From assembly GCA_023475835.1 (NCBI GenBank), contig JAMCVM010000024.1, positions 1-43,467 of the forward strand: a DNA stretch of 43,467 bases, given 5' to 3'. A program made the position numbers and the translations under genes. The notes below the pieces were generated by a model. That model was not told the origin of the DNA, did not search any database, and saw only the letters and a list, made by a program, of their open reading frames with translations. Position 1 is the stretch's first letter. Every line of letters begins with the position of its first letter. Of this stretch, positions 4,758 to 33,021 are shown piece by piece. This DNA comes from Bacillota bacterium. Its GTDB lineage: Bacteria > Bacillota > Sulfobacillia > Sulfobacillales > Sulfobacillaceae.

Positions 4758-5981
4758 ATGAGTGAGGTCGAAGGAGCCAAGATTACATATGTGGATGGCC
4801 AACTGAAGGTCCCGGAGCAGCCCATTATTCCTTTCATCGAAGGCGATGGGATTGGTCCTGACTTGTGGCGAGCGACGTCGCACGCGGTGAATGCAGCGGT
4901 CGAAAAAGCGTATGGCGGTCGCAAAAAGATTGTGTGGAAAGAGGTATTGGCTGGGGAAAAGGCGTTTAAGGCCACCGGCGAATGGTTGCCGGAAGCCACA
5001 CTAGAGGCTATGCGGACCTACCGAGTAGGACTTAAGGGACCGTTAACTACGCCGGTCGGCGGCGGAATCCGTTCGTTAAATGTGACCATCCGCCAGGAAT
5101 TAGACCTTTATGCGTGTGTGCGTCCGGTGCGCTATATTCCGGGAGTGCCTTCGCCCATGCAGCGCCCGGACAAGGTGGACATGGTCATCTTTCGAGAAAA
5201 CACCGAGGATGTATATGCTGGGATAGAGTGGCCGGCAGAGGGAGAAGCCGCCGAAAAGGTCATTCGTTTCTTGAACCAGGAGATGGGCACTCACATCGAT
5301 CTTACGGCTGGAATCGGAATTAAACCGATCACGCGATCCGGCAGCGAGCGCTTGATTCGTCGCGCCATTCGCTATGCCATTGATCATGGACGACGTTCGG
5401 TCACTATGATGCATAAAGGCAATATTATGAAGTTCACTGAAGGCGCGTTCCGGGATTATGGGTATGCTTTGGCCAAAAGGGAATTTGCTGATGACGTGAT
5501 TAGTGAGGCCGATCTCTATGATCGCTACCATGGCGAGGCACCTAAGGGCAAGGTTGTGCTTAAAGATCGCATTGCGGACATTATCTTTCAGCAAGTGTTG
5601 TTGCGGCCCGACGAATTTGACGTGATTGCCTGTCCGAATTTGAACGGTGATTACCTTTCCGATGCTCTGGCCGCCCAAGTGGGTGGGGTGGGCATGGCTC
5701 CTGGTTCCAATTTGTCGGACGAGGTGGCCGTGTTTGAAGCCACTCATGGTACCGCGCCCAAGTACGCGAACCTGGATAAAGTGAATCCGAGTTCATTGAT
5801 GCTTTCGGCCATCATGATGTTAGAGCACTTGCAGTGGAACGAAGCCGCGAACATGGTGCGGTCGGCTATCGAGCGCACCATCGCGGATCGGGTGGTCACC
5901 TACGATTTGGCGCGTCAAATGGAAGGCGCCCATGAAGTCGCCACGTCGGCGTTTGCCGAAGCGATGGTAGAACGGATGTAG
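4758..5981 (+). CDS. icd: NADP-dependent isocitrate dehydrogenase
   Basis: A 407-residue protein of the prokaryotic NADP-isocitrate dehydrogenase type. It oxidatively decarboxylates isocitrate to 2-oxoglutarate. Visible landmarks are the N-terminal [14 protein letters not shown], the substrate segment with Ser in [33 protein letters not shown], the catalytic Lys/Tyr region [16 protein letters not shown], the metal-binding Asp cluster around [20 protein letters not shown], and the cofactor loop HGTAPKYA. The ATG follows GAGGAGGAACGATAG. It is the first gene of the TCA block, with mdh 42 bp downstream. Intact and confidently assigned. Confidence 0.95.
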
Positions 5982-5999
5982 CCATTCCGATGGGAATGG
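5982..5999. repeat. Intercistronic hairpin between icd and mdh
   Basis: CCATTCC-GATG-GGAATGG directly follows the icd stop codon. It has a 7-bp perfect stem and a 4-base loop but no T-run, so it is more likely an mRNA-stabilising or attenuating element than a terminator. mdh has its own GGAGG site just downstream. Confidence 0.5.
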
Positions 6000-6023
6000 T
6001 GAACTGATAGGAGGCATATTGCA

Positions 6024-6953
6024 GTGTTTAAGCGGCGAAAGATTACGGTAATCGGGGCAGGCGCGACTGGAGCGGCCACCGCCCATTTGTTGGCGCTGAA
6101 AGAATTGGGCGACATTGTGTTGGTGGACGTGGTCGAGGGAGTGCCGCAAGGCAAGGCGCTCGACATGTGGGAATCGGGTCCGGTGGAGGGGTTTTCGGTC
6201 AAAGTGACGGGAACCAATCAATACGACGACACGGCGGATTCCGATATCATCGTGGTGACGGCAGGCATGCCACGAAAGCCAGGCATGAGTCGCGACGATT
6301 TATTGAAAATTAATGCCGACATCGTCTATCAAGTGGTAGAAAAGGCTTCGAAAGTATCGCCGAATGCGGTCATTGTGGTCTTGTCCAATCCCGCCGATGT
6401 CATGGCTTATGTGGCTCAAAAAGCGAGCGGGTTTGCTCACCACCGGGTGATGGGCCAGGCCGGGGTGCTGGATTCGGCTCGGTTTCGCACATTTTTGGCC
6501 GAGGCTCTGGGCGTATCGGTCAGGGATGTGACCGCGTTTGTGATGGGTGGGCATGGCGACGCCATGGTGCCGCTGGTGCGCTACTCGTCGGCGGGGGGGA
6601 TTCCCGTCGATCGCTTGCTGGACGCAGCCACCTTAGAGAAGATTGTCACTCGAACCCGGGGAGGCGGCGGTGAAGTCTTGGGTTTGATGAACGTCTCGGC
6701 GTTTTATGCGCCCGGGTCTTCATTGGTGGAGATGGTGAAGGCGGTCTTGTTGGATGAGCGCCGAATTTTGCCGACCATCAGCTATTTGAACGGGGAATAT
6801 GGGGAACACAACATTTATGTGGGAGTGCCTGCCATCTTAGGCGGGGCCGGAGTCGAAAAGGTGCTAGAGGTCGATTTCACACCGGAGGAAGCTCAGGCGT
6901 TCAAATTGTCAGTGAAATCGGTGCGGGATCCTCTATCCCAATTATCATACTGA
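6024..6953 (+). CDS. mdh: Malate dehydrogenase (LDH-like type)
   Basis: A 309-residue NAD-dependent malate dehydrogenase of the lactate-dehydrogenase-like group, interconverting malate and oxaloacetate. It has the Rossmann glycine motif VIGAGATGAATAH near the N-terminus, the NAD-ribose Asp in DIVLVDVVEG, the substrate-binding loop with Arg pairs (TAGMPRKPGMSRDDLL), the NPADV element, and the catalytic His in FVMGGHGDAMVPL. The Arg in the mobile loop favours malate over lactate. The GTG start at 6024 is supported by AGGAGG about 9 bases upstream. It lies between icd and sucC in one transcriptional direction. Confidence 0.93.
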   Translation: MFKRRKITVIGAGATGAATAHLLALKELGDIVLVDVVEGVPQGKALDMWESGPVEGFSVKVTGTNQYDDTADSDIIVVTAGMPRKPGMSRDDLLKINADIVYQVVEKASKVSPNAVIVVLSNPADVMAYVAQKASGFAHHRVMGQAGVLDSARFRTFLAEALGVSVRDVTAFVMGGHGDAMVPLVRYSSAGGIPVDRLLDAATLEKIVTRTRGGGGEVLGLMNVSAFYAPGSSLVEMVKAVLLDERRILPTISYLNGEYGEHNIYVGVPAILGGAGVEKVLEVDFTPEEAQAFKLSVKSVRDPLSQLSY

Positions 6954-6986
6954 CTGACGGAGAACGCTTAAATTAGGAGGGAATCG

Positions 6987-8099
6987 ATGAAACAGTACGA
7001 GTATATGGCCAAAGGTCGTCTAAAAGAGCGGGGGATTACTGTACCCCCAGGGCGGATTGCGGATACACCGGAAGAGGCGGCCAAAGTGGTAGCGGAAATC
7101 GGCCCGTCTGCACTCAAAGCGCAGGTATTGGTCGGCGGCCGAGGGAAAGCCGGAGGCATTAAATTTGCTTCCACTCCCGAAGAAGCGGTCATCCAAGCGA
7201 AAGCGATTTTAGGTATGGATCTCAAAGGCTATCGCGTGGATCGCCTTTACGTGGAGGCAAAGCTCGAAATCGAGCGTGAGTTGTATGTGTCGGTGACCAC
7301 CGACCGCAATGCCAAAAAACCTTTAGTAATGGCATCGGCAGCCGGTGGAGTGGAGATTGAAGAGGTGCAAGATGACCTCATCATTCGCCGCTTAGTCGAT
7401 CCGGAAGTCGGTGTGCTTCCTTATCTGGGGCGGGAAATTGCCGAAGCCATGAACTTGTCGTTGCCGTTGGCTCGCGAGTTTTCGGAGCTTTTGGTTCGGC
7501 TGTATGCCATTTATCGCCAAGAAGATGCTGAACTCGTCGAGATTAATCCTTTGGTCGTGGTTGATGGCCACTTAATTGCCGCCGATGCGCGTCTTAACAT
7601 CGATGACAGCGCGCTTTTTCGTCATCCTGAGTTCGAATTGGTGGAAGAAGGGTCCGCACTCGAACATACCGTCCACCAATTGGGGCTGGCGTATGTCGAA
7701 CTCGACGGCGATATTGCGGTGATGGCCAACGGTGCTGGCATGGCGATGGCCACCTTGGATGCGATTCAACATTACGGCGGCCGACCGGCTAACTTTTTGG
7801 ACGCCGGAGGTGGAGCGGCCGTGGAGCCCACGGCGCAGGCGCTTTCCGTGTTAGTGGGCATGCATCCCAAAGCGATTTTTATCAATATCTTTGGTGGCAT
7901 TACGCGGTGTGACGATGTGGCTCAAGCGATTTTGCAAGTGCGTCGCAGTCAAGGAATTCCCGTGCCCTTGGTCGTGCGATTGGTCGGCACCAATGAACAA
8001 AAGGGTGTAGCCATGTTGGAGGAAGACGGCATCGCCGCCTTCTCGGAGATGTCTGAGGCCGCCCAACGGGTAGTGGAACTAGCCGGAGAGGGGCGTTAG
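6987..8099 (+). CDS. sucC: Succinyl-CoA synthetase beta subunit (ADP-forming type)
   Basis: A 370-residue ATP-grasp subunit of succinyl-CoA ligase, which couples succinyl-CoA cleavage to substrate-level NTP formation. The N-terminal ATP-grasp region holds LKAQVLVGGRGKAGGIKFA and the metal/nucleotide segment DAELVEINPLVV. The C-terminal ligase domain has NFLDAGGGAA and INIFGGITRCDDVA. The usual N-terminal 'yqaKellakyGi' appears as YMAKGRLKERGI. The ATG is preceded by AGGAGGGAATCG. The stop is immediately followed by sucD, so the two subunits are made from one message in equal amounts. Confidence 0.95.
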   Translation: MKQYEYMAKGRLKERGITVPPGRIADTPEEAAKVVAEIGPSALKAQVLVGGRGKAGGIKFASTPEEAVIQAKAILGMDLKGYRVDRLYVEAKLEIERELYVSVTTDRNAKKPLVMASAAGGVEIEEVQDDLIIRRLVDPEVGVLPYLGREIAEAMNLSLPLAREFSELLVRLYAIYRQEDAELVEINPLVVVDGHLIAADARLNIDDSALFRHPEFELVEEGSALEHTVHQLGLAYVELDGDIAVMANGAGMAMATLDAIQHYGGRPANFLDAGGGAAVEPTAQALSVLVGMHPKAIFINIFGGITRCDDVAQAILQVRRSQGIPVPLVVRLVGTNEQKGVAMLEEDGIAAFSEMSEAAQRVVELAGEGR

Positions 8100-8100
8100 C

Positions 8101-8970
8101 ATGGCGATTTTATTGCGCAGCGAAGATAAGATTATTGTGCAGGGAATCACAGGGAATCAAGGTCGGTTTCATACTGGGCAAATGGTCGCGTATGGCGCCA
8201 AGGTGGTCGGCGGGATTTCTCCAGGCAAGGCAGGCCAACAGGTCGAGGGTGTGCCGGTATTTGACACGGTCCGCCAAGCCGTGGCGGCTACCGGGGCTAC
8301 CGCGTCGGTGGTCTTTGTGCCTGCCGCCTTTGCCAAGGATGCGGCGTACGAAGCCTTAGAAAATGGCATTCGCCTGTTAGTGATGATTCCCGAGCATATT
8401 CCGGTTCAGGATTCGATTGACATTGTCACCCGGGCTCAAGCCTTGGGTGCCGTAGTCATAGGGCCCAACACCTTCGGGGTGATTACCCCGGGAGAAAAGA
8501 CCAAGATGGGGATCATGCCCAATCACATCTATCGGCCCGGGCCTGTCGGAGTTGTGGCCCGGTCGGGCACATTAAGCTACGAAATTGCCTTCAGCTTAAC
8601 CAATGCAGGGCTGGGCCAGTCGACGGTGGTCGGAATGGGCGGCGATCCGGTGGTGGGTCAGAACTTCATTTCGGTGCTTGAGGCTTTTCATCAGGACCCG
8701 GAAACCAAAGCCGTGGTGATGGTGGGGGAAATCGGCGGCAGTGCCGAAGAAGAAGCGGCTGAGTATGTGAAAACGCTCGGCAAGCCGGTGGTAGCCTATC
8801 TTGCTGGCCGGGCGGCGCCTCCGGGCAAACGCATGGGTCATGCCGGTGCGATCATTGAACGGGGCCGAGGGACCCTAGACAGTAAAGAACGGGCGCTGAC
8901 CGCAGTCGGAGTGCGTGTAGTGACCATGCCCTGGGAGGTGGCACCCGCGGTGCGCGAGATCTTGGGTTGA
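8101..8970 (+). CDS. sucD: Succinyl-CoA synthetase alpha subunit
   Basis: A 289-residue alpha subunit carrying the CoA-binding domain (VQGITGNQGRFHTGQMV) and the phosphohistidine loop GHAGAIIERGRGT, whose His is phosphorylated during catalysis. It pairs with SucC one base upstream. Typical elements include PAAFAKDAAYEA, GPNTFGVITPGE, ARSGTLSYE and GEIGGSAEEEAAEY. Full length compared with the roughly 290-residue family norm. It is the last gene before the strong terminator at 9116-9149. Confidence 0.95.
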   Translation: MAILLRSEDKIIVQGITGNQGRFHTGQMVAYGAKVVGGISPGKAGQQVEGVPVFDTVRQAVAATGATASVVFVPAAFAKDAAYEALENGIRLLVMIPEHIPVQDSIDIVTRAQALGAVVIGPNTFGVITPGEKTKMGIMPNHIYRPGPVGVVARSGTLSYEIAFSLTNAGLGQSTVVGMGGDPVVGQNFISVLEAFHQDPETKAVVMVGEIGGSAEEEAAEYVKTLGKPVVAYLAGRAAPPGKRMGHAGAIIERGRGTLDSKERALTAVGVRVVTMPWEVAPAVREILG

Positions 8971-9956: not shown

Positions 9957-10073
9957 TGACCTTCGGTACCCAGCCATCCCCAATCATGGCGTCTACTCCA
10001 AGTCGTCTCGACTTTCGTGTATGATAGGAGGTAAGATTTCGATCACGGGATGAATTCGATGGGGGGTGGTGCG

Positions 10074-11384
10074 GTGAAGCTGCAGGTGGTAGGAATCAAT
10101 CATGTCACCGCCCCGGTGTCAATTCGGGAACAAGCAGAGATGAGTTCGGAAGAGATTTTGGCTGGGTATAGGACGCTAGCCGGATTGCATGCAGATGGTG
10201 GTGTAGTGGTTCTTTCCACGTGCAACCGTACCGAGTTCTATGTTGCCGGAGCGTTAACCTTAGCGGACATTCTGACTTGGTGGGAACAGTGGAGCGGAGT
10301 AGAACGCGGGCAATTGTCCGAATATCTCTACTGGCTCCAGGACGATCAGGCCATCGACCATCTTTTTAGAGTTGCCGCCGGGGTCGATTCGATGATTATC
10401 GGTGAACCCGAGATCTTGGGACAAGTAAAGGCCGCGTACCAGTTGGCCCAAGATGGCGGAGTGGCTGGAGTGTTACACCGGGTGTTTCAGACTGCCCTGA
10501 GAGTAGGCAAGCGGGCACGGACAGAGACCGCCGTCAGCCAAAATGCCCTGTCGCTGGGCCATGTGGTGGTGGAACTGGTCGAACGAGTATTTGGCCAGGT
10601 CAGCGGACTCAAGGTGTTGATTCTAGGCGCGGGCGACATGGCCGGGCTAGTGGCCCGGCACATTCACAGCGCCGGAGTTTTGGGAATCCAGATCGTCAAT
10701 CGAACGCCCAGTCGAGGCCGATCCTTGGCGAAGGAAGTAGGCGGGGAAGCTTATGGTTTGGACGACCTCGAGGGCTTGTTGGCCGGAGCCGATGTGATCA
10801 TCGCGGCAACCAAGAGCCCGGAGATTTTGGTGTCTGAACAAGTCGCCAGGAAGGCGTTTCGCGAGAGCGAACACCGTCTTCGCTTCTTTTTCGATCTTTC
10901 CGTTCCGAGGAACATTGATTCGGGCGTGCGGCGGAGCGGGCGGGAAGTGTTTGTCTATGACATTGATGATGTACGCTCCGTAGTCGAAAAGAATCAGGCC
11001 GAGCGTAGACGGGAGGCCGACGCGGTCGATCGCATCGTCCGCGAAGAGGTGGTTCAATTTAGAGAGGCTCTGAGGGCGACCGATATCGGGCCTTTGATTC
11101 GCGGCCTGCGAGACCGTGCTGAGGAGATTCGAGTCGCAGAGCTATCCCGGGTGATGACACGGTTAAATCATTTAGACGATGACGAACGCGATCTGATAGA
11201 ACAAGCGACGCGGCTTATGATCAATAAAATTTTGAATGAGCCCATGGTGAGTATGCGCAAATGGGCGGCTCGGGGTGACCATGAGAGAGTGGACATGGTC
11301 GTAGACCTTTTTCATTTGCGGCCCGAGGTCGAGGCCAAGACGCGGGCTATCATGGCTGAACGTCGTCTTGGCTCGTCAGGATAG
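10074..11384 (+). CDS. hemA: Glutamyl-tRNA reductase
   Basis: This enzyme reduces glutamyl-tRNA(Glu) to glutamate-1-semialdehyde, the first committed step of C5-pathway tetrapyrrole synthesis. Visible are the N-terminal VVGINHVTAPVSIRE, the catalytic Cys in VVVLSTCNRTEFY, the VDSMIIGEPEILGQVK motif, the NADPH-binding Rossmann loop LILGAGDMAGLVA, and a C-terminal helical dimerisation domain. I prefer GTG 10074, because homologues begin just before 'VVG.NH.TAP' and a GGGGTG-like site precedes it. An ATG at 10050 in the same frame would add eight residues. An AGGAGG at 10026-10031 is too far from either start to serve well. First gene of the hemAXCDB operon. Confidence 0.94.
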   Translation: MKLQVVGINHVTAPVSIREQAEMSSEEILAGYRTLAGLHADGGVVVLSTCNRTEFYVAGALTLADILTWWEQWSGVERGQLSEYLYWLQDDQAIDHLFRVAAGVDSMIIGEPEILGQVKAAYQLAQDGGVAGVLHRVFQTALRVGKRARTETAVSQNALSLGHVVVELVERVFGQVSGLKVLILGAGDMAGLVARHIHSAGVLGIQIVNRTPSRGRSLAKEVGGEAYGLDDLEGLLAGADVIIAATKSPEILVSEQVARKAFRESEHRLRFFFDLSVPRNIDSGVRRSGREVFVYDIDDVRSVVEKNQAERRREADAVDRIVREEVVQFREALRATDIGPLIRGLRDRAEEIRVAELSRVMTRLNHLDDDERDLIEQATRLMINKILNEPMVSMRKWAARGDHERVDMVVDLFHLRPEVEAKTRAIMAERRLGSSG

Positions 11385-11388
11385 CACC

Positions 11389-12186
11389 GTGTTGCGCGCC
11401 CTAATCACCGTGTTTTATCTTGTCGGTGCGGTATTTTCTGTGGCCGGATTTTACCGCCCCCGCCGTTTAATTTCGGCGACCGTCGTGACCGCCGTCAGTT
11501 GGGGGTTGTTGACGTTCTATTTGATTTATCTGGGGATGGCGGCGGCAGAACTCCCGGTCACCGGTTTCGGGACGTGGCTGGCGGTTTTGGTGTGGATTAT
11601 CGCTGGCATGGCTTTGATGGCGGTGTGGGTCTTTGGTGGACAGTATCGCGCCTTGTCAGGGTTTTTATTACCGGTGGGCGCCGTTTTTTGGTTGGCGGAT
11701 CTCGGTGTGGCTGACCGGGTACAGCGGATGCCGCTTTCGGGGTGGCTTCCGTTGCATATTGTGGCCGCGACCTTGGCGGTGGTGGCACTGTTGTTGGCGG
11801 CCATATTTGGGCTGATGTATACCGAAAAAGAACGGGAACTTCGCAAAAAGTCCGTCGAGGTATTTTATTACCGTCTCCCCGCGCTTCAAGAAATGGACCG
11901 TTGGAGCTCGCGTTTGGCGGGACTGGGGCTGGGGTTGTGGCTGGTAGCGTTAGCCGCGGGCGCACTGTCTGCGAGGCAGGTCGCGAGGCCGCCGATGGAT
12001 CCGCTGGCGGCGGGGTGGTCGCTATTTACAGCGGTGATGTATGGGTTTTACTTCATGATGCGCAGTGCCTTTGGGTGGAGAGGGCGTCCTGCTGCGGTAA
12101 TGTTGATGGTCCTATTTTTAGTCGTGCTTATCAATTTTTTGACGCTCAATTTACACTGGATCGTCGCCAGTTCCTTTCATTTTTGA
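11389..12186 (+). CDS. hemX: HemX / CcsA-type membrane protein
   Basis: An integral membrane protein of about 266 residues with seven to eight hydrophobic segments, in the place HemX occupies in the Bacillus hemAXCDB operon. HemX belongs to the cytochrome c assembly (CcsA/CcsB) superfamily and in Bacillus affects the level of glutamyl-tRNA reductase. The conserved segment WLPLHIVAATLAVVALLLAA carries a His typical of this family's haem-handling loops. The start could be TTG 11368 (overlapping hemA) or GTG 11389 behind AGGA. I chose GTG. Confidence 0.8.
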   Translation: MLRALITVFYLVGAVFSVAGFYRPRRLISATVVTAVSWGLLTFYLIYLGMAAAELPVTGFGTWLAVLVWIIAGMALMAVWVFGGQYRALSGFLLPVGAVFWLADLGVADRVQRMPLSGWLPLHIVAATLAVVALLLAAIFGLMYTEKERELRKKSVEVFYYRLPALQEMDRWSSRLAGLGLGLWLVALAAGALSARQVARPPMDPLAAGWSLFTAVMYGFYFMMRSAFGWRGRPAAVMLMVLFLVVLINFLTLNLHWIVASSFHF

Positions 12187-12222: not shown

Positions 12223-13116
12223 GTGGCGAGTTTGCGGATTGGAACCCGGTCCAGTCCATTGGCCATGGTGCAGGCCATGGAAGTGCAGCGGGCCCTCGAG
12301 TCCCGGGGCCATCAGACGGAACTGGTTCCATTTCAAACCCGAGGGGACCAGATATTAGACCGAGCGCTGGACCAAGTAGGGGGCAGCGGAATATTTACCA
12401 CGGAGTTAGAATCGGCTCTGCGTGCCGGGGACGTGGACTTGGCCGTGCACTCGCTTAAAGACCTGCCCACGGAACTGCCCCCAGGCTTGGTGGTGGGGGC
12501 CTATTCAGCCAGCGAGGACCCCCGCGATGTGTTAATCGCGGCACGACCGATTGAAGGATTCGACCAAATTCCTCCCGGTGCTCGCATCGGAACTTCGAGT
12601 GTTCGCCGACGGGCATTCTTACGCGATCTTCGCGAAGACCTGGATGTGGTCGCCGTTCGCGGAAATTTGACTACCCGCTTCCGAAAAATGGAGGAACAGG
12701 CCTGGTATGGCCTCATCTTGGCCGCGGCCGGGGTTCACCGCCTGGGCTGGAAAGATCGGATAGGGCTCTATTTGGATCCTAAGGTCTTTGTACCCGCACC
12801 GGGACAAGGGATTGTGGCAGTCGAAGTGCGTTTGGATGACCCCGAAGGGTTGAAGTGGGTTGAGGAGGCGGTGGGAGACGCACAGAGCGCGGTTCGGGCA
12901 CGCGCTGAACGTTCAGTGCTCCACGCGTTGGGGGGTGGCTGTCAAATGCCTTTAGGCTGTTATGCGACGTGGATTTCGCGAACCGAGGTTTCGTTAATGG
13001 CTAAATGGGTGGATGGCCAAGGTCACGTTACGTTGGCTGGGATTTCAGGAAGCAGCCAAGACCCCGAGGGCTTGGGGCGACGACTCGCCGAACGCTTAAG
13101 CCAGGCTGGGAATTGA
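12223..13116 (+). CDS. hemC: Porphobilinogen deaminase (hydroxymethylbilane synthase)
   Basis: A 297-residue enzyme that polymerises four porphobilinogens on a covalent dipyrromethane cofactor. Landmarks are the N-terminal RIGTRSSPLAMVQA, the catalytic Asp region DLAVHSLKDLPTE, RIGTSSVRRRAFL, and the cofactor-anchoring Cys in LGGGCQMPLGCYA. The GTG start follows AAAGGAGACGATAAG. It lies 36 bp after hemX and 6 bp before hemD. Confidence 0.95.
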   Translation: MASLRIGTRSSPLAMVQAMEVQRALESRGHQTELVPFQTRGDQILDRALDQVGGSGIFTTELESALRAGDVDLAVHSLKDLPTELPPGLVVGAYSASEDPRDVLIAARPIEGFDQIPPGARIGTSSVRRRAFLRDLREDLDVVAVRGNLTTRFRKMEEQAWYGLILAAAGVHRLGWKDRIGLYLDPKVFVPAPGQGIVAVEVRLDDPEGLKWVEEAVGDAQSAVRARAERSVLHALGGGCQMPLGCYATWISRTEVSLMAKWVDGQGHVTLAGISGSSQDPEGLGRRLAERLSQAGN

Positions 13117-13122
13117 GCCTGG

Positions 13123-14442
13123 ATGCCTATGTCGATTCCAGACTTGACTTTGGTGGCCATGCCACCGGCAATGAACATAGGATGGTTGAGCGCGGAAGCG
13201 CTCTGGGCTTTGGAGCAGAGTGAAGTGATTGTTGCGCCCTTGCCGGTAGAACGCTTTTACGGGCCCGACTCTGGATGGTGGCAGAAAATTACCTGGTCTG
13301 ACTCCCCCGCAGGGGTGATTGCGAAGGGGTTGGAGGAGCAGCAGCGAGTGGTCTATCTGTACCCTGAGGGGGGAGGCCCAGCCTCCGTCTGGCAAATGTT
13401 GGATCAGCATCCGCAATGGCTCAAATGGATTAAACGAACAGCGCGAGTCTGGCCGATAACGCTGGCGGCCGACTGGTGGACGGACCCGAAAGAGCTGGGC
13501 GGGCGATGGCAGTTGCTGGCCGAAGACGACCAAAAGCGTCCGTCGATGTCGGTCTCGGTCGCCTCTTCGGAACAACATCGCCCATGGTTGCCGGCATCGC
13601 TGGCTCAGAGCATCGTGGTTGAGACGATGAGGGTAAAATCGTTGTCTCGACCATCTTGGTGGAGCACCCGTCCATTGTATGGCATCCGGTTGTTGGTGCT
13701 GCGTGAAGGGGAAGGCGCTGTTGGAGCCATCCGGGATCTTAGCCACTGGGGCGCGGAAGTGGCCCTCGAACCTATCTTGACGATTGAGCCGGCGCCCTTG
13801 AACGAACAGTGGTGGCGAAGCCTGGCACCGTATCAATGGACGATTTTTACTAGCGCCAATGCCGTCCATTTTACGATGCGAGCGCTTAGAACCCGCCGAT
13901 TAGAATTGGCGCGGTTTGGCGGCAAAGTGGCCGCGGTGGGATCAGCGACGGCGCGGGCGCTGGCCGAGTATGGCGTATTTGCGGCGTTGCAGGCGAAGGA
14001 TTCATTCGACCAAGAAGGTCTTTTGCAGGCCTTTGAAAGTGAACCCTTGGCAGGAGCTCGGGTCCTCTGGTTCACCGGAGACCGTAGTCGTCCCCGGTTG
14101 AGTGACGGCCTCAAGGCACGGGGCGCAGACGTCGATATGGTGCCAGTGTACCAAAATTGCCAACGGCCGTTGTCGCAGTGGGCAGTGAGCCAAATTCACG
14201 CGAGGAGCGTGCATGGGCTCTTGTATTCTTCGTCGTCTTTGGTCAGCGAACTGCTAAACCAACTGGATGATGGTACCATAGAGGTGTTGCGTCAGATCCC
14301 TGGTTTTAGCATCGGTCGCCAGACCTCATTAGCCCTTCGCAAGGCGGGATTGCTGGTTTCGGGGGAAGCGCCTCGCGCGAGTTGGCACGAGTTGGCGCAA
14401 ACGGTGGCACGATACTTCGAACATGATCATGATAAGAGGTGA
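13123..14442 (+). CDS. hemD: Uroporphyrinogen-III synthase with an N-terminal degenerate SUMT-like domain
   Basis: At 439 residues this is far longer than a stand-alone HemD of about 250. The C-terminal part (about 185-430) is the synthase that inverts ring D and cyclises hydroxymethylbilane: IFTSANAVHF, KVAAVGSATARALAEYG, WFTGDRSRPRLSDGLKARGA, LLYSSSSLV and SIGRQTSLALRKAG are typical. The first ~130 residues (LTLVAMPPAMNIGWLSAEAL; ALEQSEVIVAPLPVERFY; AGVIAKGLEEQQRVVYLYPEG) follow the order of a CobA-type uroporphyrinogen-III methyltransferase. However, the GxGPGD SAM-binding motif and the 'GGDPFVFGRG' loop are lost. It is probably a catalytically dead SUMT fused to HemD; the domain reading is by pattern, not alignment. 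The GTG of the hemB frame overlaps its stop. Confidence 0.85.
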   Translation: MPMSIPDLTLVAMPPAMNIGWLSAEALWALEQSEVIVAPLPVERFYGPDSGWWQKITWSDSPAGVIAKGLEEQQRVVYLYPEGGGPASVWQMLDQHPQWLKWIKRTARVWPITLAADWWTDPKELGGRWQLLAEDDQKRPSMSVSVASSEQHRPWLPASLAQSIVVETMRVKSLSRPSWWSTRPLYGIRLLVLREGEGAVGAIRDLSHWGAEVALEPILTIEPAPLNEQWWRSLAPYQWTIFTSANAVHFTMRALRTRRLELARFGGKVAAVGSATARALAEYGVFAALQAKDSFDQEGLLQAFESEPLAGARVLWFTGDRSRPRLSDGLKARGADVDMVPVYQNCQRPLSQWAVSQIHARSVHGLLYSSSSLVSELLNQLDDGTIEVLRQIPGFSIGRQTSLALRKAGLLVSGEAPRASWHELAQTVARYFEHDHDKR

Positions 14443-14450
14443 GGCGGTTT

Positions 14451-15428
14451 ATGTTTCCAGTCGACAGGCCGAGACGGCTTCGAGCCAGCGCTGCATTGCG
14501 CGATTTGGTGCAAGAGACCCGGTTGACCGTAGGACAGTTGATTTATCCGATGTTTATTCGATTTGGCAGCGACCATAAGATTCCGATTCGTTCGATGCCT
14601 GGAATTTACCAGTGGTCGATTGATCGCGCTCTTGAGCACCTGGCCGTGGTGCAGGAGATGGGAGTCCGCTCGATCTTGCTGTTTGGCATTCCCGAACATA
14701 AGGATGCGATGGGACGAGAAGCGTATGATCCAGAAGGCATCATTCAGCAAGCGCTACGCGCGTTTAACGAGCATTTTCCCCAATTGACGTTGATTGCCGA
14801 CCTTTGTCTATGCGAGTATACCGACCATGGACACTGTGGCGTGGTGAAAGACGGTTGGATTCAAAATGACGAGAGTCTCGAATTATTGGCCCGAACCGCA
14901 GTGCAACAAGCGTTGGCTGGAGCGGACATCGTGGCTCCGTCAGACATGATGGATGGGAGGGTAGCTGCGATTCGCGCCGCTTTGGACGGGCATGGCTTGA
15001 TCAATACGCCGATTATGTCCTATGCCGCCAAGTATGCCTCTGGGTTTTACGGACCATTTCGGGAAGCTGCCGAAAACACCCCAGAGTTCGGAGATCGTCG
15101 CACCTATCAGATGAACCCTGCAAACCGTCGCGAAGCGATAAGGGAGGTCGACCTCGATATTGCCGAAGGAGCCGACATCGTGATTGTGAAGCCGGCAATG
15201 CCCTATTTGGATATCTTAAGTGATATCAAAGGCCATGTTTCGGTGCCGGTTGCCGCTTATCAGGTCTCCGGAGAATATTCGATGATTCAGGCGGCGGCGG
15301 GGCATGGCTGGATCGACGCGAAGAGGGTGGTAGAGGAATCGCTGCTATCGATTCGCCGTGCCGGAGCTGACCTCATTATCACCTATTTTGCTCCTCAATA
15401 CGGGCAATGGCGACAGCAAGGGATGTGA
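14451..15428 (+). CDS. hemB: Delta-aminolevulinic acid dehydratase (porphobilinogen synthase)
   Basis: An enzyme of about 325 residues condensing two 5-aminolevulinates to porphobilinogen. The Cys-rich zinc site appears as IADLCLCEYTDHGHCG, marking a zinc-type enzyme. The two Schiff-base lysines sit in MSYAAKYASGFYGPFREAA and IVKPAMPYLDILSDIK, and YQVSGEYSMI is also typical. I prefer ATG 14451, well spaced from AGAGGTGAGG; a GTG at 14439 overlaps the hemD stop and would add four residues. It ends the hem operon here. hemL, the next gene in Bacillus, is not in the window. Confidence 0.94.
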   Translation: MFPVDRPRRLRASAALRDLVQETRLTVGQLIYPMFIRFGSDHKIPIRSMPGIYQWSIDRALEHLAVVQEMGVRSILLFGIPEHKDAMGREAYDPEGIIQQALRAFNEHFPQLTLIADLCLCEYTDHGHCGVVKDGWIQNDESLELLARTAVQQALAGADIVAPSDMMDGRVAAIRAALDGHGLINTPIMSYAAKYASGFYGPFREAAENTPEFGDRRTYQMNPANRREAIREVDLDIAEGADIVIVKPAMPYLDILSDIKGHVSVPVAAYQVSGEYSMIQAAAGHGWIDAKRVVEESLLSIRRAGADLIITYFAPQYGQWRQQGM

Positions 15429-31835: not shown

Positions 31836-33021
31836 TCAAATTCCTGAGTTTGCGCTCAGCACATCGTTCTGCAAGGTTGCAGAATATGGCCCTAGCTGGG
31901 CAAGAATGTTGCGAGCCGAATTTTCGTCGCGATCCATGACGAGGCCACATTGCGGACAATGATACGTCCGCGTCCACAACGGCATGTCTTGACGATAGCC
32001 ACACCCCGAGCGGTCTTTCGAGGTATAGCGCTCGCTGATCCTGTAGGCCTGCTTGCCGTTGCGTTGCGCTTTGTAGTGGACCATCTGCACGAATTGGTAG
32101 AGACCTCATTCATTTTGCACACTGCGGTGCAGCCCCTTGGTTCGTTGGGTGGCGTTCTGCGATTTTTGCACCATCTGTTGTTGCGACAGATCGCCGAGCA
32201 CGATAGCCCTTTCAGCCTGTCGTGTCAGGAAAGCGGAGGCTTTGTGCAAGGCATCGCGGTGCTGACGACGTTTTTGTTCGGATACGCGATGATACACCTG
32301 AGTCAAGTAGCGATATCGCCGGGATCCCTTCTGACATCGACTCCGTAACCACCGAATGCGATCAAGCGGTTTGTTGTACCAACGATAAGCGGTAAAGCCG
32401 CCAATATGCAGGCAGCGTCCGGTCGTGCTATAGCCTGTGGCCAGGGTTTTAATCCCCAAGTCATAAGCGATGGCGCTTCCATCATCCGCTGGGGGTGAGG
32501 ACTCATGCATCTCCGCTAGAAATGTGGCGTCATAGTGCCCTTCCGCATCTCGGGTGATCGCCACTTCTCGAAACGGAATAGGCGTCGTTTCCGTCAAGAT
32601 GGCATGAATATCAGCGAACCGCTTCGTCTTCCCGCGCCCGCCCGTCGGAAGTTATGAGAGTTCGACCCTCTATCCGGATGGACATGCCGGGATACTTGAG
32701 GGTGAAGAATTTCTGTCGAGGACGGTAGCGCGAGAATCCCGGCCCTTCCCCTTTTTTCACGCGACGAAAAAACGCTTGCAGGGCTTCATCGAGCCGGAAG
32801 AAGACTTCGTGGAGCAACTTGCCATAGACCGCGTTGATCTCGGGATCAATCCCACGGCTTTGTTGCAAGGTCTTCTTCGCGTCATACAGCGACCCCTTTG
32901 CCCCCGCTTTCAACTGACCTAAATGCCAGTTGTGCAGGGCTCGACCCTTGGCTTGCAGGAACTCCAGCGTTTCCGCGTCGCGGGGAGACACATTAATGCG
33001 AATCTTTTTCGTTAAGAGCAT
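31836..33021 (-). pseudogene. TnpB (IS607 RNA-guided nuclease family), inactivated
   Basis: Read across lesions it is about 390 residues. It starts MLLTKKIRINVSPRDAETLE; a frameshift near 32640 joins RIEGRTLITSD to GGRGKTKRFADIHAILTE; a TGA lies near 32106; it ends with MDRDENSARNIL. The first RuvC Asp is present (AYDLGIKTLA) and the third (DRDENSARNIL) too. However, the second RuvC acidic residue, normally Glu in 'EDL', is Gly (IVLGDLSQQQM), and the first zinc-finger Cys is replaced (KDRSGCG instead of K.CSGCG). TnpB normally cuts DNA guided by an RNA from the element's right end; this copy cannot. Confidence 0.8.

Follow-up and report, generated by a model that had tools for sequence, protein, structure and literature searches.

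The window, by which we mean the whole analysed stretch of 43,467 nucleotides (contig JAMCVM010000024.1 of assembly GCA_023475835.1, a Bacillota bacterium of the family Sulfobacillaceae), carries a hem gene cluster in the order hemA, ccsA-type gene, hemC, hemD and hemB (Table 1). Its hemD encodes a complete synthase domain behind a long N-terminal extension, and it is this extension that is unusual. In a Pfam profile search the synthase domain matched PF02602 along nearly the full model with an E-value of 5.4e-40 and 137.4 bits, compared with a cut-off of 27.5 bits, and a genome-wide profile search returned this ORF as the single PF02602 match in the source genome. As the sole HemD of the genome, with hemA, hemC and hemB alongside, the product presumably acts as its uroporphyrinogen-III synthase. 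Immediately upstream of the hem cluster, TCA-cycle genes were recognised by eye (isocitrate dehydrogenase, malate dehydrogenase and the beta and alpha subunits of succinyl-CoA ligase; 4758-8970, +). The selA gene (L-seryl-tRNA selenium transferase, PF03841; 15750-17150, +) lies downstream of hemB, and an ORF at 32106-32597 (-) resembles, likewise by eye, a fragment of a TnpB/OrfB transposon protein. A 257-aa antisense ORF overlapping hemD (13096-13869, -) was rejected as a real gene because it has no Pfam match, whereas the sense frame has homologues and a low dN/dS (see below). In the sister species this antisense frame is likewise uninterrupted, probably as a shadow cast by the codons of the sense strand.

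Table 1. Features of the hem cluster and of the hemD gene in the window (positions are those of the whole stretch)
Feature	Position	Strand	Remark
hemA, glutamyl-tRNA reductase	10050..11384	+	family match
ccsA/hemX-type cytochrome c assembly protein	11368..12186	+	family match
hemC, hydroxymethylbilane synthase	12223..13116	+	stop codon 6 bases upstream of the hemD start codon
hemD	13123..14442	+	ORF of 439 aa: SUMT N-lobe remnant, linker and uroporphyrinogen-III synthase
SUMT/CobA N-lobe remnant	13123..13488	+	residues ~1-122; profile links to relatives matching PF00590
SAM P-loop (GxGPGD) and following Leu-Thr, equivalent position	13153..13191	+	reads VAMPPAMNIGWLS; glycines and Asp lost
Conserved Asp of the SUMT YDRLVS motif, equivalent position	13237..13239	+	Pro39 in the window protein
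Trp52	13276..13278	+	derived residue; in 21 of 22 family remnants, mostly Leu in SUMT
GGDP loop, equivalent position	13366..13380	+	EGGGP; Pro kept, Asp lost
Asp117	13471..13473	+	invariant in the alignment of 13 family remnants; near the lobe end
Linker	13489..13677	+	residues ~123-185; without recognisable C-lobe
HEM4/HemD catalytic domain	13738..14385	+	residues 206-421; PF02602, profile positions 7-226 of 231
hemB, porphobilinogen synthase	14439..15428	+	start overlaps the hemD stop

Taken alone, residues 1-181 of the window protein gave no match in Pfam or NCBIfam, and neither this segment nor the whole protein reached the gathering score of TP_methylase (PF00590). The N-terminal domains of many HemD proteins in the same order do match PF00590, with E-values of 2.8e-15 (G013), 5e-14 (G034) and 1.2e-13 (G033) and weaker ones of 1.7e-8, 3.7e-7 and 8e-4; some of these relatives exceed the gathering score. 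The window protein is collinear with such relatives over its whole length, as illustrated by the protein from G012 (38% identity across residues 1-437). Profile-profile comparison (hhalign, local mode) linked the N-terminal profile of the window clade to two relative clades that match PF00590 (3.2e-6 and 1.4e-6), while the controls, a HemD profile and a reversed SUMT profile, gave 0.36-0.47. The direct comparison of the window-clade profile with the uroporphyrinogen methyltransferase SUMT was weak (0.007). Still, a profile pooled over the order aligned with SUMT at 9.3e-13, and a profile built from 13 family remnants mainly retrieved tetrapyrrole methylases among solved structures (CobF, 7e-9; 2ybo/2ybq, 3e-8), cytochromes following in the same search at 0.014 or weaker. 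Judged by these profile links through relatives and by the structure matches, the N-terminal domain is a SUMT-type N-lobe whose C-lobe is absent. The two lobes of SUMT span ~240 residues, and coverage is confined to the first: the pooled alignment occupies SUMT columns 3-135 of 251, and in relatives scanned singly the PF00590 alignments reach no further than position 141 of the 212 in the model, the stronger ones running from about 1 to 140. Only a few weak alignments from the genome scan, which read through into HemD, extend beyond position 141. The original prediction that HemD is fused to a degenerate domain of the SUMT type is thus borne out, remnant and HemD lying collinear in one ORF in the order CobA then HemD. 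The SUMT outline that it described is genuine by way of the relatives; it is that of the N-lobe, not of a whole degenerate domain. Moreover, it should be noted that the models, when applied within the order, cannot tell SUMT from its sister methylases, so that the case for a CobA origin is made by the fusion partner, by the position and by the class family f4 described below.

The residues required for SUMT chemistry have largely gone. As originally claimed, the GxGPGD and GGDP loops are not intact: the former is replaced by VAMPPAMN, a vestige of the latter persists as EGGGP without the Asp (Table 1), and the position of the conserved SUMT Lys (VGK) is deleted in the window protein. When 22 family remnants were aligned with SUMTs, the aspartates of GxGPGD, YDRLVS and GGDP and the Lys of VGK were absent from nearly all of them, and in the window clade the P-loop glycines had been lost in addition. 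Some relatives retain GGGPG and PGTP loops, and some clades a GGGPGD-like loop. With its SAM-binding and catalytic residues gone, the SUMT half is, as far as can be read from its sequence, not catalytic. Conversely, hydrophobic positions of the first strand, the first helix and the fourth strand are kept in 91-100% of the same 22 remnants, and Trp52 is, like Asp117, invariant in the second alignment of 13 family remnants. Structure prediction added little to this picture. AF2, supplied with two near-identical sequences, returned pLDDT values of 35.7 for residues 1-193 and 37.0 for the whole protein, the HemD part being equally low, and a Foldseek search with the low-confidence model of residues 1-193 gave no match below 0.001, the best matches being implausible at a TM of about 0.17.

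Selection on the lobe was addressed by pairwise dN/dS (Nei-Gojobori), with neutrality evaluated by a simple binomial test. Between the two species of the window genus, dN/dS was 0.23 for residues 1-120, compared with 0.24 for HemD and about 1.0 for residues 121-189. On the strength of the first value, the N-terminal domain is to be read as a genuine translated part of hemD. The range of residues 1-185 originally given for the domain therefore needs division: residues ~1-122 constitute the remnant, and the remaining ~60 residues are a linker whose dN/dS in the genus is about 1. Taken by itself, the difference between lobe and linker in this pair is not significant (P 0.13). Across six other close pairs, values of 0.13-0.26 were obtained for the lobe, against 0.03-0.19 for HemD. 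Neutrality of the lobe was rejected with P 0.013 in the window pair, where the test draws on 13 substitutions, and with P between 1e-6 and 7e-11 in the other six. The remnant is under purifying selection, with dN/dS of 0.13-0.26 across the seven pairs. At the same time, the lobe evolves faster than HemD between genera, and its dN/dS lies above that of HemD in most pairs.

The same fusion, which the original prediction had proposed to look for in relatives, is widespread. We found hemD in 40 of 42 genomes searched in the order, and extraction of the whole proteins revealed an N-terminal domain of ~150-210 residues in 33 of these; the remaining seven have at most ~50 residues ahead of HemD. In a HemD tree the order is monophyletic (100/99) and full fusions are basal, and at least two losses of the remnant took place within the order, in genus g2 and in g6 with g11. 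Intact CobA-HemD proteins of ~500 residues with GAGPGD and GGDP motifs predominate among those phylum relatives from which HemD was extracted, and they occur in the class too (families f126, f132, f135, f137 and f140). Family f4, a member of the class outside the order, has a better preserved half-domain for which SUMT/CysG models score best (2e-19). As f4 falls on a separate branch of the HemD tree and a full fusion separates it from the order (moderate support, 89/90), the C-lobe may have been lost from CobA-HemD more than once in the class.

Retention of the remnant does not follow the need for SUMT. The source genome encodes a separate full-length CysG-type SUMT on contig C74, adjoining a sulfite reductase. 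With PF01077 matches as the marker for siroheme enzymes, such an enzyme is accompanied by a full SUMT in 18 of the 33 remnant genomes, and both are lacking in 13. One of the two exceptions is a 61% complete genome with a siroheme enzyme and without a full SUMT; the other has a SUMT without PF01077 and, close by, a cluster of several further tetrapyrrole methylases that presumably relate to B12. Full-length SUMT thus tracks siroheme enzymes almost exactly across the genomes, and the remnant neither substitutes for SUMT where this is needed nor vanishes where it is not. The close tracking and the 13 genomes with neither enzyme indicate that the remnant is not kept for SUMT chemistry. The proposal that a retained dead domain has a structural or regulatory role is supported to the extent that purifying selection points to a non-catalytic role; binding the tetrapyrrole product and holding pathway enzymes together, the two functions it named, are candidates. 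Regulatory coupling to the siroheme branch is unlikely, as the remnant persists in genomes devoid of both SUMT and siroheme enzymes.

Based on these data, we favour, with a probability of roughly 0.6, the assignment of the N-terminal domain to a pseudoenzyme lobe of SUMT that HemD has retained for a structural or docking function. Because selection keeps the lobe in shape, the dead methyltransferase half probably assists the heme enzyme by other, non-catalytic means. The ancestor would have been an ordinary CobA-HemD (SUMT-uroporphyrinogen-III synthase) fusion. In the order, its CobA half has lost the C-terminal lobe together with the SAM and catalytic residues, and SUMT chemistry falls to a separate full-length enzyme where siroheme or B12 is required, here the CysG-type protein. 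The remaining N-lobe would still fold, purifying selection preserving it as a structural component of HemD, and would most likely pack on HemD or dock a pathway partner, thereby stabilising or positioning the synthase. Since hydroxymethylbilane is an unstable intermediate, HemC would be the natural candidate for such a partner. What counts against a structural role is that the lobe is dispensable, HemD occurring alone in seven of the 40 order genomes. A more specific version is put forward tentatively, and we would sooner bet against it than for it: HemD may have co-opted the SUMT N-lobe as a specialised partner domain without catalysis, marked by the lineage-specific Trp52 and Asp117; it may dock hydroxymethylbilane synthase for channelling, and the half-domain may have more than one origin in the class.

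The seven relatives without the lobe, and the usually faster evolution of the lobe relative to HemD, make slow decay the main rival to the structural reading. The lobe would then be a leftover whose changes are filtered only against harm to HemD, for example by an unfolded or sticky N-terminus, until it is deleted. The graded series that was observed, from intact CobA-HemD via the half-domain and the degenerate half-domain to none, speaks for such a process, as do the two losses in the order and the nearly unconstrained linker in the window genus. Still, the lobe is as constrained as HemD in the window genus and shows dN/dS well below 1 in all seven pairs, the newly conserved Trp and Asp suggest that constraint was gained, and the lobe was kept in 33 of 40 highly diverged genomes, so that we consider decay unlikely. 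Rather improbable is a role in holding tetrapyrroles, whereby the lobe would retain part of the uroporphyrinogen cleft and bind hydroxymethylbilane or the product so as to shield it or hand it over. SUMT does bind uroporphyrinogen III, the product of HemD, and the GGGPG and PGTP loops retained in some relatives would suit this idea; yet the SUMT cleft is located between both lobes, which renders product binding less likely for a remnant that lacks the C-lobe, and in the window clade the loops as well as the Asp and Lys positions are gone. Residual methyltransferase activity, either of the lobe alone or paired with a protein supplying the C-lobe, is very improbable: the GGGPGD-like loop of some relative clades would fit it, but the C-lobe is absent from the remnant, no convincing lone C-lobe was found in the source genome, and both the tracking of separate SUMT with siroheme enzymes and the 13 remnant genomes with neither speak against it. 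Equally improbable is a chance resemblance to SUMT of an N-terminal extension of unrelated origin, as the failure of the window protein to match anything by itself and the direct SUMT match of 0.007 are outweighed by collinear homology to relatives above the PF00590 gathering score and by the location of the lobe where CobA sits in CobA-HemD.

The window protein differs from each of the known systems it resembles. It shares the domain order, an intact HemD and the hem cluster setting with the bifunctional CobA-HemD fusions, which occur in intact form in the same class and phylum, but with the N-lobe only and without SAM and catalytic residues it would not be bifunctional. Compared with SUMT (TIGR01469) and TP_methylase (PF00590), the remnant preserves N-lobe homology and the hydrophobic core pattern, whereas GxGPGD, the Asp of GGDP, the conserved Asp or Lys and the C-lobe are missing. 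Plain HemD (PF02602) has the same complete synthase domain and differs by lacking the ~185-residue N-terminal extension, as is the case in genera g2, g6 and g11. The siroheme synthase CysG, of which the source genome has its own representative, contains the SUMT domain type ancestral to the remnant, but is a working methyltransferase that is not fused to HemD.

A fused enzyme half that has been stripped of its chemistry and of one lobe, while its second lobe remains under selection across an order, provides a natural experiment on whether CobA physically helps HemD. It bears on the hand-over of the unstable hydroxymethylbilane and on why the CobA-HemD fusion is so frequent. There is also a risk for annotation, in that such N-terminal extensions may be misread as a methyltransferase, or overlooked, when siroheme or B12 capacity is deduced from genomes. 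CobA-HemD fusions were reported in 1974 of 5564 Firmicutes and in 3448 of 5525 Actinobacteria (PMC11237513). Within the open-access literature, to which the search was confined, no account of a HemD carrying a degenerate or halved CobA was found.

Several further HemD proteins carry extensions worth recording. In families f136, f107 and f144 (L116-L120, L123-L125 and L127) HemD is preceded by short or odd extensions that by eye are possible SUMT remnants, Pfam giving no match or 0.015; the label 'remnant' on the f107 and f144 rows of the HemD tree was likewise assigned by eye and is not relied on. In two genomes of another phylum family, f52 (L135 and L138), HemD has an extension of ~100 residues that by eye is similar to a still shorter SUMT front. 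Finally, genome G089 contains a second HemD ORF of ~508 aa, the size of a CobA-HemD fusion.
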